In this document: in pieces, positions 6,519 through 54,996 of the stretch
Position numbering within the stretch: position 1 is the first letter of the stretch
Layout: each line of letters begins with the position of its first letter
From: Macrocystis pyrifera
Taxonomy: Eukaryota; Sar; Phaeophyceae; Laminariales; Laminariaceae
NCBI GenBank assembly: GCA_031763025.1
Contig: JASSKH010000010.1
Location: 4,769,901 to 4,833,900, forward strand
Direction of reading: 5' to 3'
DNA: 64,000 nt
Program-made: the position numbers and the translations under genes
The notes under the pieces: model-generated
Seen by the model: only the letters and a program-made list of their open reading frames with translations
Database searches by the model: none
Told to the model about the DNA's origin: nothing

Positions 6519-6549
<31 letters not shown>

Positions 6550-22450: not shown

Positions 22451-23460
22451 CCGTGGATCCGACACTTTGAAATCATCCCGCTTCCTGCTCAAAGGTTTCT
22501 CTCATACCAACACTGAATGATGCTCCGATAATATCAAAGATACTACCTGGAACACGAGTATAGCAGTCTGAAGCTGGAATTGGAATGGAGAATTCCGATA
22601 TTTGGAAAGTACAGCGGTACTGCTGTCTTATTGCACATATCCCCACACTTTCTCGTAGTTCCAGGCGTTTTGCCCCGAAACATGGGGTCACAATCCGCTT
22701 GGGGTTAACGTGCCTGGTATTATAATCTCCGTACCCACCTCCTCGAGCTCCCACATAATATTACAGTATGTTAGCACGAAAGACCCACTCCATATATATG
22801 GCAGCAATATCAGCTATATACTATGGGGGTGCTCACGCCGTACTCCCAGACTTAATTAACATGTATACCAGGTATAGTTGTCTTACACTATACCGAAACT
22901 CTGCTTCAAATCCCGCTTGGTGCCCTGATAACACCGGGACCTGAACCCTCTTCATACTACAGAGTAGCTTTGGACGGAGTAGCTTTGGATCCAAATAAAA
23001 TTATGAGCCGGCAGGGACCGTATTGGTATCCTGATCCCACTAAAAAACGCCATAAGAAGTACTATAAAAATATCAAAGTTCCAATATACGGGTATAAGAT
23101 CAGGGTGTCAAGTGGGCCCTCCCGGAGGCAGGGCCAGTTTGGAATTTGAAGCGCTCAGATCTGGGTGTAATCAGGTCGGTGTGGGATCAGGGTGCAAAGC
23201 GGAAGCAGAGTGTTCAGGAGCAGAGTTCTGGTGACGTTTACGTGATATCTTTTTTATTTTCTTCTTCCCATTGATATATTCGCCTTTCCTTTATCTCTCC
23301 CTCCTATTTATAGGCGTGACTCAGATCCGGGGTCACATAGCAGGTTCTCCTCCCTCCTTCCTACCATAATTCGTGCCTTTCATTTTTAACGCGAGGGGAC
23401 TTCTGCGCTTTCTTCCCTTGTCGGCTCGCATCGAATTACACCTACCCACGCTACGCGCTC
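22451..23460 (+). other. No gene; contains dispersed repeat R4 copy 1
   Basis: 23240-23450 (GTGACTCAGATCCGGGGT and following CT-rich sequence to CTCGCATCGAATT) matches 58860-59080. The rest shows nothing coding. Confidence 0.5.
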
Positions 23461-23463
23461 TCA

Positions 23464-24234
23464 GGCCGTTTCCTATGCGGTTCGATTTTTGAGCTTCAGA
23501 TTTTGACCCGATGGCATTTTCAGATATGAGCTTGACAAATCGAAAGGGTCTTCCTATGCGGAAAAATCAGATTTATTATTGTGCGTGTAGAGATTCGAGC
23601 AAACGCCGAGACGAACTGCTGTTTTTGTGATTTGGCGCCGCGAAGAGACGTGCTGGGTGCGCTGCCCTGCGCGTAGGACCCAAGCGTCCGAGCCCACGCT
23701 GACTGCCTCTAGTCTGGTGGCGAAGAGACGTGGCGAGTGCGCTAGAGTCAACCTGTCTTGGTATTTTGTGTTTCATTTTGTGACTGACTGCTGCTGCTGT
23801 ACAGCAGTGTAGTCTACGAGTACGTATCCACGGAGAGGCGCGTGCCGAGTGCTCTTCTCCTGGTCTCTAGGCCCAAGCCCGCGCCAGCCGACTCTAGTCT
23901 GGCCACGGAGGGACGCGCCGTCCGCGCGTCGGGCGCGAAGCAATGTCGCTATACAGCTGCATCACCATCCAACTCACCGATCGTTCTGCTGCTGTTTGCT
24001 GTCGTGGATAACATCTTGAATTTAGAGAGCATGCCGTTTTTCGATCTCTAAATCTGATGACCCAGGGTCGTCGGCTTTTGGCCCAAAATCCGACGACTTG
24101 GGTCATCGGATTCTCAAACCGAAAAAAAATCCGGTCGGATTTTGCATAATCGGACCGCATAAGTAGGGTCATTCGATTTTGAGATCGAAAAATACAAATC
24201 TGAAGCTCGAAATCGAACCGCGTAGGAAACGGCC
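23464..24234 (+). mobile_element. Harbinger-like non-autonomous element, copy 1 (771 bp)
   Basis: Terminal inverted repeats of about 40 bp: GGCCGTTTCCTATGCGGTTC at the left and its complement, ending GTAGGAAACGGCC, at the right. Flanked by direct TCA (23461-23463 and 24235-24237). No transposase frame. Inverted relative to copies 2 and 3. Internal CTGCTGCTGTACAGCAGTG is shared with copy 2 at 28544. Confidence 0.85.
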
Positions 24235-24237
24235 TCA

Positions 24238-25519
24238 GCAGTCGGTTCATTTTTGTTTTACTTTCGGCCAATATTTTCACAACCTCAGGCTGACTCTTAT
24301 GGGAGCCAGCCAGAAACCGGAAAATAAAAACAGGATTTCCCTTCATCGTGTAGAAACCCCACGGTAGTGCCGTCGGTAGACATGAGTCATTTACGATCAC
24401 TGCCCAAACATAGTAAAAACCTGTTCTTTCAACACACAGCGCATACCGCCGCCACCGATTCCTCGCCTCACAGGGCACGAGACGACGACAAACCTTTGAG
24501 GCCGTATGCTCCACTGATCTGTGAGTGCTCTCTATCAAGTTTGACCCAGTTTCGTCTGAAAAAAAAAACGGCCAGAAATGAGTCGGGCTCCAATGTCTCG
24601 AGCGAGAACTCCGGCCACACAGCATCAACCACCCTCAAAACTTGGTAGCGAGCACTCTCAGAGCAGTGGCGCTTACGGCCTGGAAGATTTGACGTCATCT
24701 CGTGCCCTGTGAGGCAAGGAATCATCAGCGGTGGTATTAATAGTTGTGTGTTGAAATCGCAGCTTTTGCCTGCTGCGGTATACCAAATGACATATCCCAT
24801 CGGTTGTGTGGGTTTCAACACCGTAAAGGGCAAATCCTGTTCTGTTTTCCGGTTTCGGCTCCCGTGAGAATCAGCGTCAACAAGGTGGCATTCAAATTCA
24901 CGGAATCAACGCTATTATTATTAGGATATTTCGAGGGTAACCACTAGACCACGGCGATATCAACCTTTTAGATCGGGTACCGTGTTTTATTGTTCATTCC
25001 ATAATATGTAAAAATAATTAGACACCGCAACTGCTGTGAGATCCAGAATTTAGCCGAAACTCATATTCGAAGCCGCGTGGGGTACTTCGAGCATGCGCAC
25101 CAGGTACTACAACTTTAGTAAGACATGGACATGGGGTGTGTAAAATTTGGCTTCGTGGAGGATATATTATGTATCGATAAGCTTATATAAACATATGCGA
25201 CATATCAGGCAGGTCTGCTTTTCGAGTTGATCTTGTTTTTGGGTCAGCACCTGAAAAATAAAAAACCAAGAGCCCTTCGTCGAGCATTGTACATTCGTCA
25301 AGCATTGTGAGTTACGTTCGATCATTTGGTTGGTTACCCCGTCGCGATCTTGAAGTTGAAAAAAAATGGTTGGTTGGTGTTTTTTCGATCTTGACGTTTG
25401 GATTATGGGACGTTATTATTTTATTGTTTTCTTGACGTTGTACGTACCTCTGGAGAAAACAATTCTTCGGTTGTCCATGCTAGCCCGAGAGCCGTTCTGT
25501 TGTCCTCACTGATACGTAT
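24238..25519 (+). other. No gene recognised
   Basis: Open frames here are short and uncorroborated. 25210-25400 is rich in TTCG and TTGG words. Confidence 0.4.
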
Positions 25520-27745: not shown

Positions 27746-28111
27746 CGCCCCTCCTTATAATGACCAGCGCATGCAACGTATGAGTACGCCCCCCCCGCTC
27801 TCCCCCCCGCTCGCCTCCCCCATGAGTATTTACTTGCGTATTCTCGGGCTTCACTTTGATTTCTCGTCCCGAGGTGTCGCAATGTTTTAATTGTTTCAGT
27901 CAAGATGGTATCATTTTATTTCATTTTATTCCTGGGTTATTCATCCACTTCAGAGTGCGTGGGACCTGAGTTGTGACCACGAACTACAACTAGTTTGTGC
28001 GATGGGTTAATTTGACAACAACAGCAATAACTGCTGTTAGTAGCAGTGCGGGTAGTAGGTGCCGCCCGCACGATAACGTTTACACTATTGATAGTGTACA
28101 ACAGATAGTAA

Positions 28112-28868
28112 GGCCTTTTCCTATGCGGTTCGATTTCGAGCTTCAGATTTGTATTTTTCGATCTCAAAAACGAATGACCCTGCTTATGCAGTCCGAATAT
28201 GCAAAATCCGACGGGAAATCTTTCGATTTGAGAATCCGATGACCCAAGTCGTCGGATTTTGGCCCAAAAGCCGACGACCTGGGTCATCAGGTTTTCAAAT
28301 CGAAAACTGGCATGCTCTCTAAATTCAAGATGCCATCCACAACAGCAAACAGCAGCAGAACGATCGATGAGTTGGATGGTCATACAGCTGTATACCGACG
28401 TTGCTTCGAGCCCGACGCGCGGGCGGCGCGTCCCTCCGTGGCCAGACTAGAGTCGGCTGGCGCGAGCTCGGGCCTAGAGACCAAGAGAAGCGCACTCGGC
28501 ACGCGCCTCTCCATGGATACGTATTCGTAGACTACACTGCTGTAGAGCAGCAGCAGTCAGTCACAAAATGAAACACAAAATACCAAGATAGGTTGACCCT
28601 AGCGCACTCGCCACGTCTCTTCGCCGCCAGACCAGAGGCAGTCAGCGTGGTCTCGGACGGTTGGGTCCTATGCGCAGGGCAGCGCGTCTCTTCGCGGCGC
28701 CAAACCACAATATCAGCAGTTGGTCTCGGCGTTGGCTCGAATCTCTACACGCACAATAAATCTGATTTTTCCGCATAGGAAGACTCTTTCGATTTGCCAA
28801 GTTCATATCTGAAAATGTCATCGCGTCAAAATCTGAAGCTCAAAAATCGAACCGCGTAGGAAACGGCC
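28112..28868 (-). mobile_element. Harbinger-like non-autonomous element, copy 2 (757 bp)
   Basis: Ends GGCCTTTTCCTATGCGG and GTAGGAAACGGCC, flanked by direct TAA (28109-28111 and 28869-28871). Its whole length matches copy 1 in inverted orientation. Two copies with intact 3-bp TNA duplications define the element borders. Confidence 0.88.
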
Positions 28869-28871
28869 TAA

Positions 28872-29725: not shown

Positions 29726-30476
29726 GTCTATTTCCTATGCGGTTCGATTTCGAGCTTCAGAGTTGTAGTTTCGATCTCAAAAATGAAAGCATCTGCATAT
29801 GCAGTCCGAATATGCAAAATCTGACCGGAAAAAAAAAAAAATCGATTTGAGAATCCCATGGCCCAAGTCGTCACATTTTGGGCCAAAAATCCGACGACTT
29901 GGGTAATCAGATTTTCTAATCGATCAATGGCAGGGTATCTAAATTCAAGATGCTATCTACGACAGCAAGCAGAGAGCATAACGATGTATGAATTGGATGG
30001 TGTCACAGCTGTACAGCAACCTTGCTTCGCACCCGACGCGCGGTCGGCGGACGGCGTATCTCTCCGTGGCCAGACTACAGTCGGCTGGCGCGGGCTCGGG
30101 CCTAGAGACCAAGAGTAGCGCACTCGGCCCGCACCTCTCCGTGGGTACGTAAGACTGTGAAATACGAAATACCAAGGCAGGTTGACGCTAGCGCACTCGG
30201 CACGTCTCTTCGCCGCCAGACCGAAGGCAGTCAGCGTTCGCTCGGACTCTTACAGTAGGTCCTAGGCGCAGTGCAGCGCACCCAGCGCGTCTCTTCGCGG
30301 CGCCAGACCACAACAACAGCAGTTGGTCTCGGCGTTTGCTCGAATCTCTGCATGCACAATAAATCTCTTTTTTTTCGCATAGGAAGACTGTTTCGATTTG
30401 CCAATTTCAAATCTGAAAATGCGATCGGGTCAAAATCTGAAGCTCTAAAATCGAACCGCATTCGTAGGAACATCCT
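29726..30476 (-). mobile_element. Harbinger-like non-autonomous element, copy 3, decayed ends
   Basis: Same orientation and internal order as copy 2 (CCTATGCGGTTCGATTTCG near the left; AATCTGAAGCTC...ATCGAACCGCA at the right). The terminal GGCC has mutated at both ends and no clean target duplication is visible, so this is the oldest copy. Confidence 0.75.
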
Positions 30477-30905
30477 TGCAATCATTTTTTTTCAGGTATC
30501 CGAAATACTGCAGCTAGTGGTACGTGCACGTATAAACGCTCGTGTCCGTATGATTCTTTATACAGGGTTCGAGGTAGATGTTTGATCTTAACGCTGAATC
30601 CTTTTTTTTCGGTTGCTTTTACCTGGAGTTTTTTCAATCTCTCACAGGGGGACTTCAAGTGGTCTCGACCCCCTCCTCTTTCTCCAATAATGAATATAGT
30701 TTTTCAAGCCTTGCGCGGGCTTTTTCGACACGGTTGCCGTCAGTTATCGATATTTTGCATGTATTTCAAAGTGAAGAGCCCTCTGCAGCGACGCCACCAC
30801 GAACGCTGCAGCTAGGTCCCCGCCGTGAAAGTTTAGGCAATCGAAGGTGTTTTCAATAATCAACTCAGTTCGTTGAAGCATGTGATGTACGAAGTATTTA
30901 TCAAA
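30477..30905 (+). other. No gene recognised
   Basis: Short uncorroborated frames only. Confidence 0.4.
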
Positions 30906-31158
30906 GAGCCCAAAAACAGCCTTCCACCCGGCCGAGAGATACGGGTACGTACCTGATATATATATATTGCATTCCTCTTCCTTTCTAAAGAGTTCGCCCT
31001 ATCTAGCTTGCACAACATCTTCTCCTTCCTATTAATAGCGTCCCCCCCCATACTGTCGTTCGACGTTCGTTTGTGAGGGGGTTTCTCCCGCCGTGACAAT
31101 GACAGCAACAAGCGCCCAAAAACAGCCTTCCACCCGGCCGAGAGATACGGGTACAAAC

Positions 31159-31199
<41 letters not shown>

Positions 31200-31343
31200 C
31201 ATTCCTCTTCCTTCCTAAAGAGTTCGCCCTATCTAGCTCGCGCAACATCTTCTCCTTCCTATTAATAGCGTGTCCCCCCATACTGTCGTTCGACGTTCGT
31301 TTGTGAGGGGGTCTGTCCCGCCGTGACAATGACAGCAACAAGC
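30906..31343 (+). repeat. Direct tandem duplication with (TA)n expansion
   Basis: Unit 1 (about 30906-31112) and unit 2 (about 31113-31343) are almost identical, from CCCAAAAACAGCCTTCCACC to CGTGACAATGACAGCAACAA. Unit 2 has an extended TA microsatellite (31161-31197). The unit abuts a kinase exon 6 relic and may carry its intron. Confidence 0.9.
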
Positions 31344-31414
31344 AGTGGCAAAACAATGACAACTCTCTCCTCATGCCTCGCCCCGCCGCCCCCCTCCTGC
31401 CCCTCACATCTTAG

Positions 31415-31560
31415 GATGGCAACAAGCAAGAGCATTGATTCCGTCGAGTGCTTGAACGATGTGGGTGGATCAGAAGGTCTCGTCATGGAGAGTTTCGATG
31501 TGCGCTTTGTTGAAGGCACGTACGGAAACTTCTGGCATCCCATCCATGCTCGCCGAGCAG
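31415..31560 (+). pseudogene. Kinase exon 6 relic (+)
   Basis: After acceptor CACATCTTAG: MATSKSIDSVECLNDVGG then SEGLVMESFDV, before GTTAAG. It matches exon 6 of A and B but is 146 bp, four short, which breaks the phase. A weaker second piece (CLDDVAESEGLVNDIC) lies at 31685-31735. Confidence 0.75.
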
Positions 31561-31794
31561 GTTAAGTGAGAAAACACACACAACACACATACACATGCGT
31601 GTTCTTGCGTTTGCTATAGTTATGTTTCGGAATAGTAGAAGTGTTCGTGCAGGATAGAAAACCCCAACAATAACCTTGGCGTAAGTGTGTTTGGACGACG
31701 TCGCGGAATCAGAAGGACTCGTCAACGATATATGTTGCTGATGTTAGTGCTGTTCGCCATCCTGCGCAACGCCACCAGGCACTGGAACGCCGTT

Positions 31795-31985
31795 CTTTCC
31801 AGTCAATACTAGCTCACCGGTGTGATGGTCTTGATTGTGTAGACTCTCCGGCCGTGCTGCAGTGCTCGCGGTGGACGACGACGAACCCTCCTTCCCCTAA
31901 GACGCCGGTGTCCTCGAAACGCTGCTGTACGTGGGCAAGCCCGTTCGTCGTTAACTCGCGCCTGCACGCATAAGCGTCGTCATTT
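31795..31985 (-). pseudogene. Kinase exon 4 relic (-), array member 1
   Basis: The minus strand reads CRRELTTNGLAHVQQRFED then TGVLGEGGFVVVHRE. The glycine loop remains but the beta3 AIK region is frame-shifted. It ends at CCG|GTGAGC, the exon 4 donor. Confidence 0.8.
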
Positions 31986-32439
31986 CTCCCGATTTGAGAT
32001 GGGCACCGGATGGCATTTTCGAAAAGCTGAAAATCGAATAGGAGGCATTCTTCTCAGAAACGAAAAACCTGTTCAGCCGGTTTTTGTTCGGCAGGTATTA
32101 TAGCCTCCATAGCATTGGAAACCATGGGTGAATAGTCGATTTTTTCCTCGACTCGCACCTTGTTGTGTGCTCTCAAGTGCGTATCTGGTTCTCTCGGCTA
32201 CCATGTCTGCCCAACTTTTACGCTGTCATGTTTATGTGTGTTCACGTTGTCCATTGCTGCAGGCTCGTTATAGTGTGGATGTGGGTGCCCTGAAATACAG
32301 CCGGTACTAAAATTACACAGAATACAAACCGTTTTAGTTTTTGAAAACCGAGTATTTGCAAACGCCTGCAGGCTTTCCTAAAACCGCGGTTAACCTGTTT
32401 GTATTTATCCGGTGCCCATCTCTACTCCCGACATCCTTC

Positions 32440-32635
32440 CAGCCATCACAGGTCACCGGTGTGATGGTCTTGATTGCGTAAAATCCCGTGTCTTGCATCG
32501 CTGACGGTAGACGATGCCGAGTCCCCCTCCTCCTATAGTAGAACGATGGTGTCCTCGAAACATTGCTATTCGTCGGTGGGCCCGTTGGCTGCCGAATCGC
32601 GCATACACGCGCAAGCACTGCCCCGGAAAAAAAGG
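32440..32635 (-). pseudogene. Kinase exon 4 relic (-), array member 2
   Basis: The minus strand keeps the 3' end FYAIKTITPV before a donor-like GTGACC, while the glycine loop is frame-shifted. Its 5' end lies a few bases from the 5' end of member 3, giving a head-to-head pair. Confidence 0.75.
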
Positions 32636-32639
32636 ACGG

Positions 32640-32811
32640 TGCCTCCTCGTGCCTGCGTGTGATAGCGGCGGACGGACTCACCCGCGCGCACCAGCGTTTC
32701 TAGGACGTCGTGGCCCTAGGGGAAAGGGAGGTCGGCATCGTCCACCATGGGCATTGCAAGAAGACCAGAGAGTCTACACAACCAAGACTATCAAACCGGC
32801 GAACTATGATG
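32640..32811 (+). pseudogene. Kinase exon 4 relic (+), array member 3
   Basis: The + strand shows GGCATCGTCCACCATGGGC and KKTRE-type coding sequence but is broken into several frames. Its 3' end runs into the 3' end of member 4 across GGCTGCAGCTCA (tail-to-tail). Confidence 0.75.
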
Positions 32812-32984
32812 GCTGCAGCTCAATGGTGTGATGGTCTGAATTGCATAGGCTTTCTAGCCTTCTTGCGTCGCTGGCGGTGGACGATGCCGAACCCCCCTTC
32901 CTCTGGGATGATGGTGTCCTCGAAATGCTGATGTACGTAAGTGAGCCTGTTGGTCGCGAACTCACGCCGACACATCGGCGGGTC
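32812..32984 (-). pseudogene. Kinase exon 4 relic (-), array member 4
   Basis: The minus strand has CATCAGCATTTCGAGGACAC and the GGGTTCGGCATCGTCCACC glycine-loop sequence. It is broken by small indels. Head-to-head with member 5 at about 32984. Confidence 0.75.
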
Positions 32985-33138
32985 GACTTGAGTTAGCGGC
33001 TAACGGGCTCACCCATTACCAGCAGTGTTTCAGGACACCATCGTTCTGGGGGAAAGGGGGTTCGGCATCGTCCACCATCGGCGCTGCAAGAAGACCAGAG
33101 AGACTAGAAAACCAAGACCATCACACTGGTGAGCTGTG
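32985..33138 (+). pseudogene. Kinase exon 4 relic (+), array member 5
   Basis: Retains GAGTTAGCGGCTAACGGGCT, GGGTTCGGCATCGTCCACC and GGTGAGCTGTGATGG. It then turns back on itself at 33125-33170 (GGCTGCAGCTCACTGGTGTG), so the palindromic pattern continues into a truncated sixth arm. Confidence 0.75.
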
Positions 33139-33339
33139 ATGGCTGCAGCTCACTGGTGTGATGGTATACACGACTCACCTCATACGTCTCTGATATCACG
33201 GACATTGTTGTCATTTTGTTTTGATAACCTGTTGCCCCAAGAGAAGTAAAACTCGTAGTACGCACTGCTGCTGCTCTCGCTGCTGCTGTGCACAGCTCGC
33301 GACATTTTCGTTGGCCGTCGACTAGTGACACAGCTACGT

Positions 33340-33422
33340 TTTTGACGCAGCCATTCGATCCATTCTTGATCCAAGGGTATACAGGAGCCGGTCTGGTGCG
33401 AGACATGATCGCCTGCGCCATG
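33340..33422 (+). pseudogene. Kinase exon 5 relic (+)
   Basis: FDPFLIQGYTGAGLVRDMIA matches exon 5; the alphaC glutamate position is Asp (RD). Donor-like GTTGAG follows at about 33421. Confidence 0.75.
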
Positions 33423-33701
33423 TTGAGCCCGCTCTCCTTTGTCTCGCCACGCGATCAGCTTACTCTTCGTGACCTTCTTTGCAGTAGGTAGGCGTGCGCG
33501 TGTCGCCAGCGAGCGGCCACATACCGAGGTTGTGGTGTCCGAAGCCGCGCATGGATGGTAGCTTACTAGTGGTGCTCCTGTTGCGCTTTGGTGTGCACGC
33601 CGAAACATCGGGGTCTTGAAGTTTAGCCCCTCGGGGGGCCGAGGTAGCTCTCTCGCCTCATGCCACGCCCCCCTCTCCCCCCCTGCCCCCCACATATTGG
33701 G

Positions 33702-33849
33702 ACGGTAACCCACAAGAAGATTGTTGTCGTTGGTTGTTCAAACGATGTGGGTGGATCAGAGGGTCTTGTAGTGGAGATGGCGCTGTGCGATATGTTCAAG
33801 GCCTGTACGAAAATGAGCGACTCCGTATTCTTCTCAAACAAGATATCAG
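33702..33849 (+). pseudogene. Kinase exon 6 relic (+)
   Basis: GCSNDVGGSEGLVVEMALCD then MFKACTKMSDSVF matches exon 6. The acceptor dinucleotide is GG instead of AG. Confidence 0.8.
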
Positions 33850-33889
33850 TAAGTTTCTTGTTCCACGAAACTTACTTGTCATGTTGAGC

Positions 33890-34040
33890 GAGCATGAACG
33901 CGGGGTCGCTCTTTCCCCCCCTACAGGCCTGGAACATATCACAGAGCGCTATTTCCATGATGAGTCCCTCGGAACCCGTGATATCACTCAGGCATTCCAC
34001 GCTGACAATATTGGCGTGTTTCATCATGCTGAGATGCGAG
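33890..34040 (-). pseudogene. Kinase exon 6 relic (-)
   Basis: The minus strand reads MMKHANIVSVECLSDITG and then GLIMEIALCDMF. It is closer to locus B exon 6 (KHANIVSVECLSDITG identical) than to the adjacent + strand copy. Confidence 0.8.
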
Positions 34041-34311
34041 GGGCAAAAAGGGGGTGGGGGGGCGGGGTGGCATGAGGCGAGCGCTTCCTCAGTCGTCCGA
34101 GCGACTGACCTTCAAGCGCCCGGCATTCCGACGTAAACATCAAAACACAGCAGTAGCTTCTTCACTAAGCAATCATCCCGGTGCGGCTTCGAACACGTCC
34201 GCCTCGGTATGCGTGGTGGCTGGATGCGGACACGAGTCATGCGTACGCCTAACTACGGCACAGAAGATCTCAAACAGGACGCTAAAGGCATGGCGACACA
34301 CAGGAAGAGGG

Positions 34312-34405
34312 CGCTCACATGGCGTAGGCGATCATCTCTCGTAGCAGACACGCTCCGGAGTTCCCCTGGAACAAGAATGGATGGTAAGGGATCTCGTGAT
34401 GTCGC
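34312..34405 (-). pseudogene. Kinase exon 5 relic (-)
   Basis: After an intact CTTTCAG acceptor on the minus strand: HHEIPYHPFLFQGNSG then ACLLREMIAYA, donor GTGAGC. This copy shows that exon 5 ancestrally starts after TTTCAG, the site lost in locus A. Confidence 0.85.
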
Positions 34406-35090
34406 AAGGCTGAAAGGGTCGTATACCTCAGAGATGGCAAACGAAATATGCCGCGACCTATGGACAACCGCAACGGCGGCAGTAGCAACAGCAGCACCGT
34501 GAATGTGTTGTACTCCCCCTGGAGCGACAGGTTCGTGAACGAGCAATGTAGTTATTGTCCGTGGTATCATGTAGACAGACGGGCCGAATCACATTTTTTA
34601 GTCGGACAGCACAAGTACTAAGTTATTTGCTTTTTTTTTATACATTTGTACTACGATGTATCATTGTCACGCAATATACATTGATGAAGCCGCACAAATA
34701 AACGCGGCGAAAAGCTAAGGTGGAAGAACTCTCCTTGGAAACAACAAGGAGTTGCAAAGCACGCACCGGCATGGGTTGCGAATTTAGCCGGAAGAGGAAA
34801 TTCTTGAGGAATCGCATTTACTGTAATTATTGGAATGCGATTTTCTGACTTTGACGACGCCAAACAAATAGGGACCGCTTTCCAGTTGCTTGAAGAGTCC
34901 GCGCCAGGCGTAACGCTCCCGAAAGAACGGACGAAACGAGCAAGGGCGATCTTCTTGATCCGCACACAAGTTGACGACAGTTTCAACTATCCCCATGCGT
35001 ATACATAGCAGTCTTGGCATCTTCCCGCCGAACCTTACGAGGCGCTACAAGTTCCCAGGGAAACCCTTGCCACCGGACTCTGCAACACCC
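34406..35090 (+). other. No gene; intron-like remains between inverted kinase exons
   Basis: 34480-34500 (GCGGCAGTAGCAACAGCAGC) and neighbouring words resemble locus B intron 4 in reverse. Otherwise nothing coding. Confidence 0.4.
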
Positions 35091-35094
35091 TTCC

Positions 35095-35300
35095 TTCCAG
35101 CCATGACAGCTCACAGCCCACCGGACTGATGGTCGTGATTGCGTAAACCATGTGGATCTTTTTGCAGCGCCGACGGTGGACGATCCCTGACTCCCCTTCC
35201 CCGAGAACGATGGTATTGTCTATATGCTGCTGTACGTCGGTGAGACCATTCGACGTTAATTCGCGCCTACACTCGCAAGCGCCGTTTTCTCTCCCGATAC
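35095..35300 (-). pseudogene. Kinase exon 4 relic (-), best preserved
   Basis: The minus strand is open through CECRRELTSNGLTDVQQHI then VLGEGESGIVHRRRCKK and YAITTISPV. The third loop glycine region reads GEGESG (Phe to Ser) and AIK reads AIT, so ATP-binding residues are gone though the frame persists. Confidence 0.8.
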
Positions 35301-35309
35301 CCTTCCGGC

Positions 35310-35480
35310 CACTACAGCTCTCACCGGTGTCATGGTTTTGATGCCGAATTCCTTCTTTGTTTTTTGGCGGTTGTGAATAGTGCGAACGCCTTTTTCCCTG
35401 GGACAGGGCCGAGGAAGTCGTCCTCGTTGTGGGCGAAGGGCGGTTCGCATCCCTTGCCGCAGGTGCTGCATAAATACCAA
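35310..35480 (-). pseudogene. Kinase exon 4 relic (-), decayed
   Basis: Only the 3' part is recognisable: KKEFGIKTMTPV before GTGAGA on the minus strand. Directly repeated with the preceding relic. Confidence 0.65.
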
Positions 35481-36086
35481 GAATGAGTGCCATCAAGACG
35501 ATCAAACTGGTGAGCTGTAATGACCGGAACCAAAGGTGTTCCAGTGTCTGTGGTGCAAGTTGTTTCCCATAGGAACTCGCACGTATCGCTACATGCGGTT
35601 TGGCGGTAAGGGGCCAAGACTGCTGTCTGTCTGCATGCGAGATGATAACGCATCGTGTTTGTTGTTAGTTGTGTTGTACAGGATGGCTATTAACGGGTTC
35701 CTCCGTTTAGCACCGACTTTCCGCATGACTTATTTTGTTATCGAACATCCCATTTGGGTGATTCGGTGATGGAACATGAAATGTATTGAAGACTGCAGTG
35801 AACATCGTTCTTGCCTGTGCGGTGTGGTAGGAATGTGAATGCAGACAGTGCTGGGGGCAATTGCTCCGAGTCATAGACTCGACCGTTTCGATCGCCATCC
35901 AGGTACCTCTATCATTTTTGTATTCATAGATGCAATGAGTAAACAACACGCCCAAATCATATTTGGAAAACCGCCTGTTTTTGTCTACCTTCGGAACAAT
36001 GGCTTTCACGATTTTACACTGCGAAACATGACACCTTGCGAAATGATTGCCATTTTTTTTCTTGGCGCTGAGATGTTTGTGGCCAG

Positions 36087-36196
36087 CTTCGAAGTGGACG
36101 TGGTGGAAATCCTGAACTAGATGCACGGCTTGGGGGTCCTTCATTGCGACCACGAGCTCGACAACACGTTGATTTGCCGCTCGGATGCCCGTGTTT
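36087..36196 (+). pseudogene. Kinase exon 7 relic (+) with nonsense codon
   Basis: After acceptor TGTTTGTGGCCAG: FEVDVVEILN, then TAG, then MHGLGVLHCDHELDNTLICR and a second stop. The HCD motif and DNTL remain; the catalytic Lys is Glu (HEL). Confidence 0.8.
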
Positions 36197-36539
36197 GAGG
36201 CCTTACATGGCCTCGACTTTGGAGCTGGCCACAAACAACACAGCGTCAAGAAAAAAATGGCAATCATGTTGTAGGACATCGTGTTGCATTGTACAACAAG
36301 TACAAGCACCGGAACGTGTGCACGGATGAGTGTGATGTGTAAACGGTTGCAGGCAGCATCTAGCCCCGGAACGTATATGCCCATGGATGGGACTGGGGAG
36401 GAGAGCACGCGAAACCGATCCTTCTGCAGGTACAGTAGACAAAACAACAAAACGGTTTTCCAACTGCACAGGTGGTGTGGTGTTAAGTCACTGCACGTAC
36501 AACGACGATAGCGGTCGGTGGGCGGTGATCGAAACGGTC

Positions 36540-36690
36540 AACTCCACAACGTGGACAAATTATGCCCAACCATGTGTTCGTCACAAGCTCGACAGCACGT
36601 TGATCTGCAGCTCGGATGGCCCTACAGGCTTCGTGGACAAAGCGTCTGACCCCGGATTGGGGTCCGTTGAGCCGGGATTCGGGGGTGAAA
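36540..36690 (+). pseudogene. Kinase exon 7 relic (+), 3' half
   Basis: HKLDSTLICSSDGPTGFVDK then ASDPGLGSVEPGFG. The catalytic HCD is lost but the DPG is kept. It is flanked by inverted copies of intron 6 sequence at 36225-36300 and 36525-36545. Confidence 0.75.
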
Positions 36691-36699
36691 ATACTGAAC

Positions 36700-37638
36700 T
36701 GCAGAAGGGAAAAAAACGAAACGCGCCAAAAGCCCCCGCGAATTTAACCCTTTAACTACAAGTGCTGCACCCACCTTAAAACGGTGCATTTTGTCTCCCC
36801 GAGACAAGCAACTAATTCGTTATACATACCCCCCTCATTTCTTTTCCCTTAAACTAATAATCAATAGATAATTCATACTGAAATATACTTCGTATAGCCT
36901 TCTACGTAGACTAATTTATACCAGGTGCTGCTGTATTCAAGATGGTCAATTCTTGAAGATGGTTGATGTTTCGTGCTTTTTGTATAATAACGTCAAAATC
37001 GCTTGTCTTGATGCGGCGTTGACGTTCACAGTTTCCTGGCATGGCGAGAGAGCTTGCGAGTCGCTGACTGGCCAAGGCGACTGTGAACGGTTGCGGTTCG
37101 GATGGACGTTTCGTTTCCTATTTCCTGCCAGGTGCCACTCTGCAACGGCCGTTGTAGTCTTCACGTTTGTACCCGAGCGGGTCCTTACTTGCCCAAACAG
37201 CGTAGTGTATAAATGCTGTACGCAGCTTGCGTAGATAAGCTTCGACGAAATCCTTGATTTCATCCCAGCTTATGTTTTGATAGTGTTCAAGTGCAAAGCA
37301 TGGGAAGAATGTTGACTCGCCAAGGCAACAGGGATTCGTGAGTAAACGCCCTTCTTCGTTCTTCGAGTCGCATAGCCTGCCTGTACACGCACACATGAAC
37401 CCCGTCGGGACATGAGGGACAATGGTCAATTATACTATTAATATAAAAGATAATATAGGTGTCGCTAGGACCTTGCGCGGCAGGATTTTTAGAGCTGTCG
37501 TCAACTCGTGCGCTGGGTGTTTTTTTTACGGCTGATGTGTGATGTTAGTCCGCTGTGAAATCGTTGCGGTCGTACGTACTGTAGATGCACCCGACTGCGA
37601 TTTCGAAGAGGGTCCCTAAAAAAGCGCCGTCGAGACTA
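36700..37638 (+). other. No gene recognised
   Basis: AT-rich at 36780-36930; nothing coding is supported further on. Confidence 0.45.
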
Positions 37639-38696: not shown

Positions 38697-39192
38697 TGCT
38701 CCTGGGTCAAGTGACCACATCGTATTTTGCGCCCGAACTAACCGAAGCCGCAATGTGTGAGAGGCCTGTGTTTTTTTTGTTTTTTTTTTGTATCACCCCG
38801 GGGGGGCAAATGGCCCGAGATGTTTTCTCTAGAAAATGCCCCAGCCAAGCAGTAAACGCCCCGGGTGCCTTATTACGCGTGCACAAACACAACGCCCCGG
38901 TGGGCGTTTAATGTATTCTAGCATTCTTACGGTATGCCAGGACACGCTCCTGGGTCAAGTGACCACATCGTATTTTGCGCCCGAACTACCGGAAACCGCA
39001 ATGTGTGAGAGGCCTGTGTTTTTTTGTTTTGTTTTTTGTATCACCCCGGGGGGACAAATGGCCCGACATGTTTTCTCTAGAAAATGCCCCAGCCAAGCAG
39101 TAAACGCCCCGGGTGCCTTATTACGCGTGCACAAACACAACGCCCCGGGGGGCGTTTCATGTATTCTAGCATTCTTACGGTATGCCAGGACA
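38697..39192 (+). repeat. Tandem duplication, about 248-bp period
   Basis: Two near-identical units, each from GCTCCTGGGTCAAGTGACCA to TACGGTATGCCAGGACACG. Each contains T/G runs and paired GCCCCGGG...CCCCGG words. Function unknown. Confidence 0.9.
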
Positions 39193-39247
39193 CGATTATA
39201 GCATCGGCCACACAAAGCAAGCAAACCCGTTTTTTGCTTTTCATCAG

Positions 39248-47708: not shown

Positions 47709-50700
47709 GTGAGTCGCCGTTTTAATACCGGTATTTTCTTTTGTAGGCTACATGTGCCGGGACTGCCACTGTTGCTGTTGTTGTTGCTGTTGCCGCTACT
47801 GGAAGACGGTGATCGACAAACTTGCCAATTGGTGCAACCGCGCTAACGCATATTTCATACCCTCCAGCGCCCCCCCAGGTGCCGCAGTGTGTTTGGTGAT
47901 TACTGCACAATACAAGTTGTATGATACACCCCATGTTTTTGCGCCACTCTTTTTTTCCATCTCTAACCTGCGGTTTACAAAGCGGGAGAAAACACATACG
48001 AAGTATCTTACATACAGTACAAGCACTGGTGCCTCGCCGAACCAAAGTACAGTCGTTTTTACGGACTCGCACTTCCCCTGCCCCGGTGCTTCCGTGCCCC
48101 GGTGCTTCCGTCAAACAACCCTCTCACCTCAGGGCGAGCTTCGACAAGAGCAGATGGCGTCAGATGCGCTGGCTGTTACCCTTCGAGAGAACACCGAGTT
48201 GCTGGCCGAAGAGAAGGTCTGATCTTTTGTTTCCCTGCCCCGCAAGCCACATCGGGCAGTCCGTGCGTGCCGTGTGTGTTAACTGTTTTTGCGTGGAGTC
48301 GATAGGATCATACTTTGTTTGCTGTACATATCGATTCGCCAGCCAGGAATAATGCGACCTGACCGTGAGGGGATGCATGCTTGATTGTTCAACCCAGCAT
48401 GTACGCTTTATGCAGAGAACCAAGTCGTTGGTGGGTACGAATGTCACTGGGCGACCCTTGGGGGAAACATACACCTATATCTCGTGGCGCCGTTATGATT
48501 TGTTTGGCTCTCACATCAGCCAGGAATAATGCGCGCTGCTGTTGATCACTTCGAATCGCTACCGGGACCACCTATTCTATAGATCAACGCGCTACACACA
48601 ATAAGTGAGTGATATTACATGTGGATGTGCTGGGTAAGTTCCATAAGCCTTACCCACAGTCGTGCAGGGTATTTATTCATACACCGACAGCATGCATGTC
48701 TAACGTTTCCGGTGGCTCGATGATTTAGGTCACTTGTTTCTTGATGAATCTTTTGGAGGTGCCTGCTGTACACTCAAACGTCAACCGTTGTCCCACTTTG
48801 TCGTCTCCGCGAGCTAGGGACGTACCAAGCTTTTGAAGAGCCTAGTGGACACTCTTCTCAAGGAGAAGGCCGATTCAAACGCTTGGACTAACGAGGTACG
48901 CGAGACAGCTTTGTAGACCTACCTGTGCTTGCAGCTTGATGTGCTTACTACTGCTTTCTCTACTCCAGCCTTCCTTGCCGTGCCGAGGTACAGTAGATCA
49001 CTGAGGTAGTACCAGTCGGTCCCCACACCAAAATATTTTTGGTTGGCATCAGACGATATGCGCCAAGCGGTAAGGCCCTTTGTATCGCACATAACCGTTT
49101 CCCCCCTCGACATGTGTCGAAATAAAATAGCGCAACCCACCCCTGGTCACTGCTATTGATATCACGGCGACACTGACGCGCGCACGACCACCCCTTCGTA
49201 AGCTCAGAGACAGTGTAACATAAATAGGGGATATATTTTTCCTTGCCGAAAACAAACTGGCACCCACGCCGTCCAGAGAAGCAATGTGCTCCCGACGCCG
49301 ACCCCATTTTCCCTCCACAGCCTGCTAGGGGGAAGGAAGCTCTGGCTCTTCTCCTTCCTGGCGGGGTTGAGGCGGGACCCCCGCGTCAAGCAGATATGCA
49401 GAATCGATGCTCCCCTGGCCTGGTGCGCCAAATATTTCTTCATCAACAACAATCCGCGTGCGCTTGTAAGCGAGAGCTGGCGGCGAATGGGTTGACTAAC
49501 CTGCACCAGCGATACCAGGACATCGAACCCCTAGGGGAAGGCGGTTTTGGTACCGTCGTCCGCGGCAAATGTCGAAAGACACAAAAGACTTACGCGATAA
49601 AAAGAGTCAGGCCGGTGAGTTCGGATGACTGAAAGGAAGGATGTTCTAGTGTCTGGCGGCGCTTTGTTTTCTAAGAATTTTCACCTCTACGCGAGGTTGG
49701 CAGTAAGATATCAAGACCGCTAAGTTTACGCATGGAGAAATATAGAGCAATACATTTGTTGTTGTTGTTTTCGTTGGTGGTGGCAGTGACGTTGATATTG
49801 TCCTCACTATCACTTGTCGCCATCATCTAGTCCATGCTCACCACACAAGACGCGCATTAGCATATCGCCGCGTTGTTTAGTGTGGCGTCAATCAGAGTAG
49901 CGTGAACAAGAAAAAGCGTACGAGTGCAAATGAAAACTCGAAACCTTGTGGTCTACGACGGAAAATTGATTAAGCTTAAACGTCGATGTGATACCACGGA
50001 CAATAAGGACGTTGTTCGTTCGTCAACATGTAGCTCCAGGGCAGTACAACAAGTAAACGATGCCGCTCCTGCTACTGCAGCTGCCACGGCTGTGCACAGA
50101 TCGCAACATTGTTTTGTTTATCATCGCTTAGCTAAACGGCCATTTCAGCCTTGCCGACGTCACGAGACCCCGTCCTATCGATCCTTGTACCAGGGGGATT
50201 CGGGAGCAATTCTGCTAAGGGAGATGCTCGCGTACGTCATGTGAGCCCCCCCTTCTTCTGTGTTGCCATGCCATAGCGTACTGTGTATGATCTTCTGTGC
50301 CGTAGCTAAGCCTACACATATGTCCGCATAGAGAGCCGCCACGCATACCGAGGCAGTAGTGCTCGAAGTCGCACCTGAATGGTTGCTTGGTGTAAATGCT
50401 ACTGTTTTTATTTGATGTTCACGTTCGAATTCGGGCGCTTAAAGGTCAGTCGCTCGTACGAGGTATCGCTCGTCTCATGCCATCCCCCCCCCCCCGCCCC
50501 CTCTTGCCCCCCACTTCTCAGCATGAGAAAACACGCCAACATCGTCAGCGTGGAATGCCTAAGTGACATAACGGGATCAGAGGGGTTGGTCATGGAGATC
50601 GCGCTCTGTGATCTGCTTCAGGCCAGTGGGGGAACGAGTGGCACGGTTTTTACACTGCCACAACAACTGAGGTGACCAGGCCCGACGGCGCATGTGGACA

Positions 50701-53700
50701 TGCGGTGGCTGTTTTCGCGGTAGGCGTGTATCTGTTCGCTACTCGTAGTGTTGGACGGGAAGGCTGATTGACGCGCTTTTTCATCTCGGAGTTATTCTTC
50801 AACGCTTCGCCATTTAGCGCCAGCGTCCTGACGATATATTTTAGAGGCATCTGATTCGGGTGATTGAAAAAGATTTTTTTTTTCACGCTGCAGTGAACGT
50901 TCTTTTCTGTACGACATACGGTACTACAATGGAAGTACGAAACGAAGACCTTGTTGGGGACAGCTATGCTCTGCACGATTTGTACGTCGAGTCGACCGTT
51001 TGGACTACCGTCCAGTAATCACTACGATACTGTTGTACTATCAATAGGTGCAGTAGGTAACCACCGCCTGAGCAGTTTGGAAACCGGCTTCGCATTTTTT
51101 CTACGGGATCAACTTTGCGCGCTATTTTCCAATGTGGCGCCACCCATGCTCAGCACGCGCACGTTCCGGAAGTACACATTGCCTCTCACATAAATTGGAA
51201 CGCGACGGTCATCCGAGCACGCGTTCCAGTGCCTGGACCTGCTGTAAACTTGAAAAATGCATGTCGCCCGATTTGTGCATATTTTGTTTTTTCTTGAACG
51301 TGTTGTTTGTGGACAGCTTTGAGGCTGATATGACCGAAGGGCTGCATCATATCCACAGTGAAGGGATGGTCCACTGCGACGTGAAGCTCGAGAACACTCT
51401 CATATTTCGCTCTGGTGGCCCCACTGGTTTCGTAGCAAAAATCACTGATCCTGGCTTGTGGTGCGGTGAGTCGGGAAGTGAGGATTGAGGGTAGAATTTC
51501 AAGAAGGAAAGTATAAACGAACGCACGAAAAATCCTCGTCACTCCATTCTTCATATTCCAAGTATTTCACCCATGTTTCAGTGGAAGGTAATTTATATCT
51601 CAATCCAGAGAAAGGCAGGTTTTCCTAAAAAAGACACGGCAGAATCACAGGTTTCTCCCCGGTTGGAAGGCATTTCTTGTTGAGCGGTGTATTTCCCGGT
51701 TGCATTATGCTCGCATCAGGGTTTGTTCTGACCCAGGTCTGACATGGCTAAAAAGAGTAATGTTGTGTTCTCAAAATTGTGTACAAGTATACCTCACGAT
51801 ACGGATAACGTTTCGCAGGTGAAAACAACACGGTGTGCTGCCCCCCCGGCCGGAAAACCTATCAAATCTAACGCGCTCCCTGATATCCAACCATACACAC
51901 GCTTGCCCTTGTCGCGAACACCACAGGAGTGGGTGAGACAAGGAAAGTTAAAACAGGCACCTTGGGGTGGATACCCCTGGAGAACGCCCTGGGGGAAGTC
52001 GAAGCAGCACCCAACCAAGACGCGTTTGCGGTCGCGGTTGACTCGTGCTTCATCCTGGCCCACCCTAGGTTGAAGGAAGAAGTTGTCAGCATGTGGGCCC
52101 ACACGGTAAGCGACATGTCCGTGCCTGGTTAGGCGTCGATTGGGCTGCAATTGCGGGTGTCGGGGTGTGCACTGCAACGGACGGTGGTGCAATACAGCCT
52201 AAAGCTTGGCTGTGTTCCGTCTCAATAAGCCACCTGCAGCCAAGCACATACATGCGTACGTACGTATCCCCCTGGTACCATCGCAAGGCCAGCCGGCCAA
52301 CCAGCCCGAAATTTCCCCTCCGCCTCGTAATTATAGTCCAACTGTCCATCCCGAACGGCTCCGTCGACCTACTGCAGATGCTGATGACGGCGGGAGAGCT
52401 GGAACGCCTAAGTGTTCTGCAAGCCACGGGGGGTTGTCAGAACCAGCTCCGGGTGAGTCCGCGATAGGGCCGGCTTTTCTCGCGTGCCTCGATCGTTCTT
52501 GCGCGCTCGATCGAATCGGGCAGCGTCGATCATCCTTACTACCTGAATCGTTTATGTATGTCTGTACTATATACCAGATATGCGTGAAGTGCCGTTTCTG
52601 CAACTGCAGCTCGATCTTCGCTACGTATAATTCATGGGTTACGAACAGTACGAGCGAGACCATGTTGTGTCTCAACCCTCATCTTAGTCTAGGATCTGTG
52701 ACAGTGTGAATGTCACGCACTGATCTACTACGCGGTGCTGATGCGTACTTGCGGCGTGTCTATGTTGCTGTCTGGCATGTGAAACTGTGTATACAGGCGG
52801 AGGTAACCGAGCGCACCATGTCCGAAGGCAGTCTGGTCCGAACTCTTCTCCAGGCAGGCAACTTCAACCCGGCTCTGCCCCCGTCCGCAGAACGGAAGGT
52901 GAGTTTCTGTCGCACCCATTTCTGGCGGATTCTCGATTCAATCAATCTTAGGTCCAACCTGATTCCAGTTCCCATGGAACTTGGGGTCAGTCTTAGTGCG
53001 CAGTTTTCCAGAACATGTCGATCACGCCCTGCTCAAACAACACACTAGCATTCATCCTCACCTGTGATGGAGAAGGACGCGCGATCTGCCCAAGCGATTC
53101 CGGTGATGCACCGACACCAAACAAGAACCTTGACTCGCCCGTATCATAGTCTCATCGAGCAATGCTAGCTACCCCAGCCTCAACCTTTGTGACACAGTGA
53201 AACGTCCAGCTTCCGTGAAATGTAGTGTTGCTCCTCAAATCTCAGCACCACCGCTTACGAAATCACAAAGACGACCGAAAGGGAATTTGGCCTCGTATTC
53301 CACCACGGAACCGCAGTACGCACGTATATTTGCCTCATTGCTCATTTGAGAACATGTTCATGACGTGTCTGTGACTACTGACACGCACAGCGTATTTGAC
53401 CCAGCCCTCCCGACTGTCTCTTCCCACCCCTGCTGTATAAAACGCTCCTTGTTCGTGCCTGAAGACGTGTGAGTGGCTGGCCAAGACTCTATCTCGAAAC
53501 CCCCTGGACCGCCCCAACTTGCCAGTGCTAACCACTCTCCTGCGCGACCTGGCCAGGATGACTGCCACCCATGAGAAAACCCTCGCCGCTGTACCGCCTG
53601 GGTTCAGTCTCCGGCTGGGAACCGCTCCCATGCCCGCCCTCGCTCCCCTGTCACCGGCAATTCCTCTCGTCGTGGGCGGTGGCAATGGTGGCGGGGGGGG

Positions 53701-54996
53701 TTTTATCCCGCTGGGTAACGGCAACGGGGGGAGGGACTCCACCATCGTCCACGCTTCGGGATTGCCGGCGTCAGGACTGGTTGGAACTGAAGGCGATGGC
53801 GACAGGAGCGCCTCGGGAGGCGTGGCCGTAGGGGGGGACTCCTTTCCCATCTCCCCTTGGCGGGACAGCGCGAGGGCCAGGGCACACCGTCCACGGAGTG
53901 GGTTCACCTCGCACCCCCCCTTATTGTCGGACCGCACGCGGGTGGAGCGGACGTTGGTGCGGATGCTGTTGTGTTTCCGGGCGCTCGGGCCGTTGAGCCA
54001 CCGCGCGGTTCAACATCGCACGGCTCGGCACCGATCGGCTTGGGACCGCACGCGGAGGAGATCATCCATGGCACGGACATTCCCTCCCTGGAGGAAATCG
54101 CTGGGTGGGCCCCACCGTTTCCCGGATCAGCTACCCGGGCGTTGGCCAATCGTCCTGCCGAAATCATCGATGGTACGGCCTTTCCCTCCATGGAAAACAT
54201 CCCTGGGTGGGCCCCACTGTTTCCCGGATCGGCTGCCCGGGTGCTGGCCAATCGGCCTGCGGACATGTTGCGCTCCCTGGGAGGAATGCTCAATTTGGAG
54301 AATGTTTCCCCCCCTGTCGCTTCGGTGCCCCTTGCGGGACAGGCCTACGGCGGCGGTAGCGGTGGCGGTGGTGATGCTAGCGGTAGCGATAGCGGTGACG
54401 GTAGCGGTGGTGGGAGCGGTAGCGGTGGTGGTGGCAGTGGCGGTGCTGGTGGCAGTGGTGGTCGAGAAGGGTCCGACGGAGGGTGGCCCCAGGAAGACGT
54501 AGAAGTGGGGGTAGTAGACGGCCCCGATACGCCTCTCACGTTCATGCAGGTGCTCGCTGATGGGTTCGGCGCGTCCGCACCCGCCGACAATATTCCCACG
54601 CCCCCGGCGGTAACACCCCGTTCTCGGGTGGTAGGCGGACCCGGCACGCCGCCGCTCACCTTCGCGCAATTGCTCGCTGGCGGGTTCGGCGCTCCCACTC
54701 CCACCGACGACACTGCCTCGCCCTCGGCGGTAACACCCCATCCTCGGGTGGTGCGCGGGACCGACTTGCCTCTCACCTTTGCGCAGGTGCTCGCACGCGG
54801 TTTCGGCGCGTCCGTCCAAGCCTCCGACGCTGGCTCACCCACGGCAGCGGCTCCCCGCCCTCAGGTGGTGGGCGGCGCGAACACGCCGCTCACCTTTGCC
54901 CAGGTGCTCGCGAGCGGTTTCGGGGCGTCCGCTCACGCCGCATACGCTGTCACGCCCCCGGCGGCACCCCTCGCCGAGATTTCCGGGCCTTCCTAA
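47520..54996 (+). CDS. Locus B: divergent protein kinase-like gene, best-preserved copy
   Basis: Exons: about 47520-47708 (start unfixed), 48133-48216, 48818-48895, 49321-49614, 50149-50240, 50522-50671, 51317-51465, 51927-52105, 52378-52452, 52797-52898 and 53461-54996. All junctions are GT-AG and phases chain correctly from exon 1 to exon 11. Kinase hallmarks in order: GEGGFG, AIK, REM (alphaC), ANIV, VMEIA (hinge), HCDVKLEN, DPG, GTLGWIPLEN, DAFAVAV and DRPN. The missing HRD arginine makes it a non-RD type, usually not controlled by activation-loop phosphorylation; the DPG is rarer and its effect is uncertain. The tail has a frame break near 53.83-53.89 kb. Probably cytosolic, as no signal peptide or membrane segment is visible. 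Substrate unknown. Confidence 0.8.
48133..48216 (+). CDS. Locus B exon 2, coiled-coil segment
   Basis: GELRQEQMASDALAVTLREN then TELLAEEK, acceptor CTCACCTCAG, donor GT 48217. Same length and phase as A (631-714). Confidence 0.8.
48818..48895 (+). CDS. Locus B exon 3, coiled-coil segment
   Basis: GRTKLLKSLVDTLLKEKADS then NAWTNE, acceptor GAGCTAG, donor GTACGC. Same length and phase as A. Confidence 0.8.
49321..49614 (+). CDS. Locus B exon 4, kinase glycine-rich loop and beta3 lysine
   Basis: 294 bp, acceptor CCCTCCACAG, donor GTGAGT. CACKRELAANGL precedes PLGEGGFGTVVRGKCRK and TYAIKRVRP. The full GxGxxG and the lysine are intact, unlike most relics at 31-35 kb. Confidence 0.88.
50149..50240 (+). 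CDS. Locus B exon 5, kinase alphaC
   Basis: PCRRHETPSYRSLYQGDSGA then ILLREMLAYV, acceptor GGCCATTTCAG, donor GTGAGC, ends phase 2. The alphaC Glu is in REM. Confidence 0.82.
50522..50671 (+). CDS. Locus B exon 6, kinase beta4-beta5 and hinge
   Basis: MRKHANIVSVECLSDITG then SEGLVMEIALCDLLQ, acceptor CCACTTCTCAG, donor GTGACC. H.NIV is the classical alphaC-beta4 motif. Confidence 0.85.
51317..51465 (+). CDS. Locus B exon 7, catalytic loop and DPG
   Basis: SFEADMTEGLHHIHSEGM, VHCDVKLENTL and FVAKITDPGLWCG, acceptor TTTGTGGACAG, donor GTGAGT. Catalytic Asp, Lys and Asn and the Mg-binding Asp are present; Arg of HRD and Phe of DFG are replaced by Cys and Pro. Confidence 0.88.
51927..52105 (+). 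CDS. Locus B exon 8, activation and P+1 segment
   Basis: GVGETRKVKTGTLGWIPLEN, then EVEAAPNQDAFAVAVDSC and FILAHP, acceptor CACCACAG, donor GTAAGC. PLE stands in for APE. Confidence 0.85.
52378..52452 (+). CDS. Locus B exon 9, kinase C-lobe
   Basis: MLMTAGELERLSVLQATGG then CQNQLR, acceptor CTACTGCAG, donor GTGAGT. Confidence 0.8.
52797..52898 (+). CDS. Locus B exon 10, kinase C-lobe
   Basis: AEVTERTMSEGSLVRTLLQ then AGNFNPALPPSAERK, acceptor GTATACAG, donor GTGAGT. Confidence 0.8.
53461..54996 (+). CDS. Locus B exon 11: kinase C-terminal helix plus repeat-rich tail
   Basis: Begins after CCTGAAG: ACG encoding T, then CEWLAKTLSRNPLDRPNLPV. The first frame is meaningful up to about 53830. 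From about 53880 the homologous sequence (EWVHLAPP, PSLEEIAGW) is in another frame that runs to TAA at 54994-54996. A G7 run at about 53829-53835 lies at the break. The tail has three PS(L/M)E-type GW repeats, a Gly/Ser spacer (54346-54460) and four roughly 38-40-residue repeats built on PLTFAQVLAxGFGAS. Locus A has one such repeat, so the array expanded in B or shrank in A. Confidence 0.75.

Follow-up and report, generated by a model that had tools for sequence, protein, structure and literature searches.

The 64-kb stretch of Macrocystis pyrifera DNA analysed here (assembly GCA_031763025.1, contig JASSKH010000010.1, positions 4,769,901 to 4,833,900; hereafter the window, to which all coordinates refer) contains two intact-looking paralogous protein-kinase genes, gene A (1562-9443, +) and gene C (48799-55164, +), with a scrambled kinase locus at 31.4-36.7 kb between them. 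When 30.0-37.6 kb was aligned to genes A and C to map this locus, exons 4, 5 and 6 and the catalytic exon were all found in both orientations over 31.4-36.7 kb. The original prediction had described a palindromic array of one kinase exon, at 31795-33170, and had attributed it to the repeated inverted duplication of a single exon rather than of a gene. The array is real, but duplication of a single exon is ruled out by the inversion of exons 5 and 6 and the catalytic exon, and more exon-4 material lies outside that interval, at 35115-35285 (-), 35298-35366 (-) and about 35410-35510 (+). The trees reported below were built from short alignments under a single simple model (Kimura two-parameter with four gamma rate categories, K2P+G4) with 100 or 200 bootstraps, and the approximately unbiased (AU) test used 5000 resamplings, where the program advises at least 10,000.

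Truncated exon-4 copies in both orientations

With the strand of genes A and C taken as +, the exon-4 array has the order a(-), b(-), c(+), d(-), e(+), followed by a 20-nt arm(-). Copy a occupies 31811-31985 (31771-31985 including the start of intron 4); the truncated copies b, c and d are located at 32440-32616, 32631-32806 and 32816-32973; copy e lies at 32989-33136; and the truncated arm at 33146-33165 is the duplicated start of copy d. With copy a (31811-31985) as the query against the window, blastn returned 32450-32616, 32817-32968, 35115-35285 and 35320-35342 on the same strand besides the query itself, and 32648-32805, 32990-33135 and 2216-2373 (exon 4 of gene A) on the opposite strand. 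Nine matches, including the query, fell within 31.3-36.8 kb, whereas none was obtained in any of 50 dinucleotide-preserving shuffles; the five alternating copies and their truncated arm are thus beyond chance, and the pieces code for the kinase glycine loop, as had been proposed.

The copied unit was nevertheless not the whole of exon 4. The array copies contain only the 3' ~165 nt of this 294-nt exon (gene A positions 2207-2373) together with a few bases of intron 4, and the 5' ~130 nt are absent from them, indicating that the unit is not an exon. The claim that every copy keeps its splice donor held for three of the five copies (GT in a, b and e), the donor being GC in copy c and TT in copy d. 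Frame-shifting base losses are present in all five copies: a single base is missing at the same place in copies a, c, d and e, and four bases are missing there in copy b, whereas this loss is absent from genes A and C and from copy f, a further exon-4 copy described below. The common loss suggests that the exon-4 piece that was amplified was probably already broken before it was copied. The array itself displays no sign of working, and the broken gene copy has the look of a relic of DNA-copying errors of known kinds.

Over their core, the five copies share 65-77% identity (b-c 67%, c-d 65%, d-e 73%, c-e 77% and b-e 75%). The alignment and tree of the exon-4 copies, which the original prediction had proposed as a check, gave a near star with bootstraps of at most 59, and the AU test rejected none of the seven constraints placed on it; two of the six measures, bootstrap proportions from resampled estimated log-likelihoods (bp-RELL) and confidence by expected likelihood weights (c-ELW), excluded the groupings of b with c and of f with gene C.

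Head-to-head and tandem junctions in the array

The junction sequence given as an example in the original prediction, GGCTGCAGCTCA, is present at 32811-32822 and again at 33141-33152. Junction c|d (32799-32823), read by eye, has its arms at the donors of the two copies and a 9-nt spacer, TGATGGCTG, at 32807-32815; its duplicate at 33129-33153 contains the same spacer at 33137-33145. By eye, the junction arms are complementary at 4 of 8 bases at c|d and at 8 of 8 in the duplicate at copy e. The segment 32658-32835 (copy c and the start of d) and the segment 32989-33165 are direct copies with 80% identity, indicating that the head-to-head junction beside e, with its truncated arm, is a duplicate of junction c|d.

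Tandem copying was also detected. The junction between copies b and a, now interrupted by an insertion, looks the same as the junction between copy f and an adjacent exon-4 stub, with TTTCTCCCGAT and TTCTCTCCCGAT beside the exon-4 start, which indicates that one tandem duplication took place before these two sets split. The argument that ordinary tandem duplication does not explain the array was therefore only partly sustained: tandem copying contributed the b-a and stub-f junctions, c and e are direct copies, and fewer independent inversions are required than the number of copies suggests.

A hAT-like insertion between copies a and b

Copies a and b are split by a 431-bp element at 31994-32424 (31986-32432 with its flanks), which we take to be a hAT-like miniature inverted-repeat transposable element (MITE) on the basis of its 8-bp flanks and the look of its ends. 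Its inverted ends read TTGAGATGGGCACCGGAT and, on the opposite strand, TAGAGATGGGCACCGGAT, and its 8-bp flanks, CTCCCGAT and CTCCCGAC, are alike at seven of eight positions, so that both terminal inverted repeats (TIRs) and an 8-bp target-site duplication are present. The paralogous site at 35291-35298 reads CTCCCGAT and is free of the insert. A search of the window for a second copy of the ends, allowing two mismatches, gave only one weak 14-mer match. Because the MITE splits the tandem pair a/b, it is most likely a later insertion in the array and not the cause of the tandem duplication. No fold-back element was found at the array, where this MITE is the sole mobile element recognised.

A separate repeat family with inverted ends is present at 23460-24238, 28111-28869 and 29731-30459, in three copies that are 81-91% alike and occur in both orientations, with 44-nt arms at 23460-23503 and 24196-24238; it is probably another TIR element.

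A mosaic palindrome of exons 5 and 6

The remainder of the locus begins with a piece of exon 6 at 31382-31517 (+), aligned to genes A and C. A recent direct repeat (about 95-96%) with runs of AT dinucleotides adjoins the kinase fragments at 30904-31343. Downstream of the array, block Z (33351-33857, +) contains exon 5 and exon 6, and block W (33867-34576, -) contains exon 6, exon 5 and the 3' part of intron 4. They meet at a palindrome centre (33849-33875) that consists of GTAAGTTTC, the 9-nt spacer TTGTTCCAC (33858-33866) and GAAACTTAC, and they join at matching positions just beyond the exon-6 donor.

Block W is 77.5% identical to gene C over 33918-34576, and it grouped with gene C in 97 of 100 bootstraps for exon 6, 99 for exon 5 and 96 for the 3' part of intron 4, indicating that W as a whole is not a fold-back copy of Z; simple fold-back of Z into W is thereby ruled out for most of W. 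The exception is the centre. In the last 50 alignment columns there, W agreed with Z at 14 of 16 informative sites, versus 43 of 134 elsewhere (Fisher P = 2.6e-5, the strongest of six spans shown, the others ranging from 0.0012 to 0.018), and none of 500 permutations reached the best split over all spans tried. The ~50 nt of W at the centre are either a fold-back copy of Z made before a move to a C-type paralog or a product of gene conversion that overwrote W. Within intron 4 of W, 413 nt (34577-34989) align with neither gene A nor gene C, the latter having ~243 nt there, and are possibly an insertion.

Beyond W, the segment 34990-35285 (-) comprises the start of intron 4 (34990-35114) and copy f (35115-35285), which is open in frame over 57 residues. 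An exon-4 3' stub with some of intron 4 (35298-35366, -) is joined in tandem to copy f by the junction shared with b-a, and it is followed by a diverged copy g (about 35410-35510), which together with the start of intron 4 spans 35410-35637 (+). Intron 4 after copies a and f aligns with that of gene C, and intron 4 after g aligns with that after f. Blocks Z, W and g therefore lie in forward-inverted-forward order at 33.35-35.64 kb.

A forward-inverted-forward catalytic exon

The catalytic exon is divided among three blocks. P (35830-36190, +) contains intron 6 and the first part of the exon, Q (36195-36580, -) is an inverted copy of the same intron 6 and exon start, and R (36582-36737, +) contains the rest of the exon and overlaps P by ~40 nt, at 87.5% identity. 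P (35830-36120) and Q (the reverse complement of 36193-36580) grouped against genes A and C with a bootstrap of 85, and P and R did so with a bootstrap of 100. The three blocks are thus a +,-,+ structure of one lineage, the clearest local event at the locus, and their forward-inverted-forward order with a short direct overlap is the pattern expected of two template switches.

Origin of the scrambled locus

We consider it somewhat probable that 31.4-36.7 kb is a decayed and rearranged third member of the local kinase cluster, made by serial template switching or fold-back repair synthesis. Pieces of this locus and of a second, C-type paralog would have been copied nearby in both orientations, by a process that we take to be of the kind named fork stalling and template switching (FoSTeS) or microhomology-mediated break-induced replication (MMBIR), either fold-back or resembling origin-dependent inverted-repeat amplification (ODIRA). 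A tandem duplication of the 3' part of exon 4 with ~45 nt of intron 4 would have come first and produced the b-a and stub-f junctions; inverted copying would next have created the donor-to-donor junction c|d, and direct duplication of c and the start of d would then have yielded both e and the 20-nt arm. The palindrome at exon 6 may have begun as a fold-back with a loop of 9 nt, in which ~50 nt of Z were copied before a C-type template served for exons 6 and 5 and for intron 4, and the catalytic exon would record a +,-,+ event of its own. The hAT-like MITE insertion and neutral decay would have been the last steps. The copies, their orientations, the junction sequences, the mosaic ancestry, the common base loss and the MITE are observed; we infer both the replication-based nature of the inverted copying and this order of events from one locus, decayed by 20-35%.

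Several observations point to this origin: exons 4, 5 and 6 and the catalytic exon in both orientations over 5 kb, a base loss common to the array copies, two independent head-to-head junctions with 9-nt spacers (c|d and 33849-33875), forward-inverted-forward order twice (Z, W, g and P, Q, R), a mosaic W that is of gene C type with a Z-like centre, and a tandem junction common to a/b and f/stub. Fold-back, which the original prediction had suggested for the exon-4 copies, accordingly gains from the 9-nt-spacer junctions, the one-lineage catalytic exon and the ~50-nt centre tract, and it loses from the C-type ancestry of most of W and from the small palindromes of the array. Inverted arms are closest relatives of each other for P and Q; for Z and W this is not so outside the central ~50 columns, and the exon-4 pairs gave bootstraps of at most 59.

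A number of results weigh against the proposed origin. Facing arms of the small palindromes resemble each other no more closely than other pairs of copies do, so that fold-back for each pair is unsupported, and the grouping of b with c is excluded by bp-RELL and c-ELW in an exon-4 tree that is close to a star (bootstraps at most 59, none of seven constraints rejected by the AU test). Copy f is not firmly placed with the array as against gene C (an AU P of 0.08 for its grouping with C); the intron-4 start beside f gave bootstraps of 31-45 around f, and the shared tandem junction is the sole tie of f to the array. No microhomology is visible by eye at c|d, and with copies 20-35% diverged, microhomology at the junctions is not reliably readable. 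In a second alignment, P and R were 78% identical over 46 columns, below the 87.5% given above. Recombination between pre-existing inverted paralogs, moreover, might give a similar picture.

This last point is the core of the most serious competing account, birth and death within a gene cluster, in which opposed Z-type and C-type copies existed first and were then reshaped by non-allelic recombination, inversion, deletion of the middle and conversion at the centre. Such a history is possible, if less probable: Z and W do belong to different paralog lineages joined at matching positions past the exon-6 donor, and gene conversion at a palindrome centre would also yield a Z-like tract of ~50 nt, but on its own it leaves unexplained the four alternating ~160-bp exon-4 pieces (b-e), the one-lineage +,-,+ catalytic exon and the 9-nt spacers. 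Capture of the exon by a fold-back or MITE-like mobile element, which would have brought it in as inverted arms, was the other mechanism offered by the original prediction; palindromic units of ~320-370 bp, partly repeated in direct order, and a hAT-like MITE inside the array would suit it. We regard it as very unlikely, however, given that other exons of the gene are inverted too, that the native intron context is kept (copies a and f are followed by intron-4 sequence alignable to gene C), and that the MITE is separate, with its own 8-bp flanks. Within the window, moreover, exon-4 matches occurred only in the locus and in genes A and C, both in blastn with three array queries and among the listed tblastn matches of three family proteins.

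Two functional readings and one technical reading were also considered. The predicted fold of 32430-33165 (-424 kcal/mol, versus a mean of -272, s.d. 10, for 20 shuffles) and a 21-nt perfect complement between arms d and e would suit a hairpin-RNA locus that silences the kinase paralogs through small RNAs. A strong fold is nevertheless expected of any inverted repeat, the facing arms have only 65-75% core identity, and arms b and c have no common complementary 12-mer. The array has no 12-mer in common with gene A on either strand, and its longest match with gene C is 12 nt, so that a silencing role on genes A and C is unsupported here, and we would judge such a locus very improbable from its sequence. 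A store of spare exon cassettes that diversifies the kinase, in the manner of the exon shuffling of brown-algal LRR-ROCO genes, is hardly credible: several copies of one coding piece do lie between two intact-looking paralogs, but the 5' ~130 nt are missing, frame-shifting losses affect five of five copies, the donor GT is lost in two of five, and three of five array copies are antisense to genes A and C. An assembly artefact was weighed as well, since misassembly of inverted repeats does occur; it is just as implausible, because the copies differ by about 20-35%, the paralog-like ancestry agrees between the exons and the 3' part of intron 4, and the array is cleanly interrupted by a MITE flanked by 8-bp repeats.

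Both independent head-to-head junctions lie 8-9 nt beyond a splice donor and have a 9-nt loop. A more daring and rather doubtful extension of the preferred origin is that a single error did both things, folding back over ~50 nt in one gene copy and then jumping in reverse to the other paralog for ~0.7 kb, with sequences at the exon-intron borders of this kinase family as possible recurrent fold-back sites. If so, the arms of the palindrome would belong to different genes, and at such loci the order of template switches could be studied in germline evolution and not only in disease or cancer.

Comparison with known rearrangements

Inverted triplications (DUP-TRP/INV-DUP) and ODIRA have been described for human and yeast variants of large segments (PMC10766186). 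The kinase locus resembles them in its local forward-inverted-forward order and in palindromic junctions that were rearranged later; unlike them, it consists of old, diverged pieces of 0.1-0.7 kb, and one of its inverted blocks derives from a different paralog. The ODIRA model as outlined there involves short inverted repeats 40-80 nt apart and an origin (PMC10766186); the likeness of the present locus to it is one of segment order and junctions. For fold-back inverted duplications, spacers of 766-70,466 bp and inverted microhomology of 2-8 bp at 13 junctions are reported (PMC3907307); the shared feature is a single-copy spacer separating the inverted arms, interpreted there as the loop of the fold-back, whereas here the spacers measure 9 nt and decay has made any microhomology unreadable. 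Template switching over short ranges in great-ape genomes likewise produces small local rearrangements (PMC7954356), but in the kinase locus a single pseudogene records several superimposed events, which extend to ~0.7 kb. The LRR-ROCO genes of brown algae, with 72-bp LRR exons that are all in phase 2 and with splice variants (PMC11378527), are similar in that exons of a single gene type are repeated within a eukaryotic gene family, and differ in that the pieces here are truncated, frame-shifted and in both orientations.

Among the literature matches listed (titles and the starts of abstracts, retrieved with limited wordings), those on brown algae included, no precedent was recognised for a kinase pseudogene with exon pieces in an inverted array. 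Because inverted triplications, fold-back duplications and short-range template switches have all been described, the locus would add a new case to a known kind of rearrangement; it is a legible record of small inverted duplications stacked within a eukaryotic gene cluster. It illustrates how more than one paralog can contribute to inverted, chimeric pseudogene fragments, and how repeats of this sort may be mistaken for exon capture.

Genes A and C and their relatives

Gene C has eight exons set between AG and GT sites at 48818-52898. Seven of these (49321-52898), when joined, form a single open frame of 332 residues that matched PF00069 (Pkinase) at 2.8e-20 (residues 65-251, profile positions 1-185 of 263); exon 4 of gene C is 294 nt long (49321-49614). 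Gene A was identified by similarity to gene C, with many aligned blocks along its length, and is rated a kinase by that similarity only. Its exon 4 is aligned at 2075-2368, exon 5 lies at 3181-3228, exon 6 is aligned at 3545-3700 and the catalytic exon lies at 4634-4789, with later exons following, all on the + strand. Kinase catalytic motifs are commonly named HRD and DFG; gene C (51317-51465) has HCD in place of HRD and DPG in place of DFG, and gene A has the same two readings, so the activity of these predicted kinases may be unusual.

Protein searches gave two matches for the joined gene C protein among 7998 scored candidates, and eight for exon 4. Nine proteins (P0001 and P0003-P0010, predictions labelled ena and lgn) hold all or most of exon 4, and P0002, a general Ser/Thr kinase with 29% identity to the gene C protein, was set aside. 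Several of the family proteins (for example, P0005, P0008 and P0009) continue beyond the end of exon 4 with similar residues, which fits an intron-4 start common to the family. Pfam searches of eight of the 46 listed stop-to-stop open reading frames of at least 150 amino acids, including the C-terminal ones of genes A and C, gave no families. Exon-4 relatives were sought by pattern in genome contigs (50 matches) and in viral contigs (22 matches), and none was confirmed in either; in the window, Rfam at the gathering threshold and a tRNA scan gave no matches.

Tandem duplications were seen at three further places in the window: at 3767-4218, between exon 6 and the catalytic exon of gene A, with a spacing of 223 bp and 97% likeness; at 38698-39194, where a 249-bp unit is duplicated with 96% likeness; and at 55190-55587, directly downstream of gene C, where two 199-bp copies are exact.
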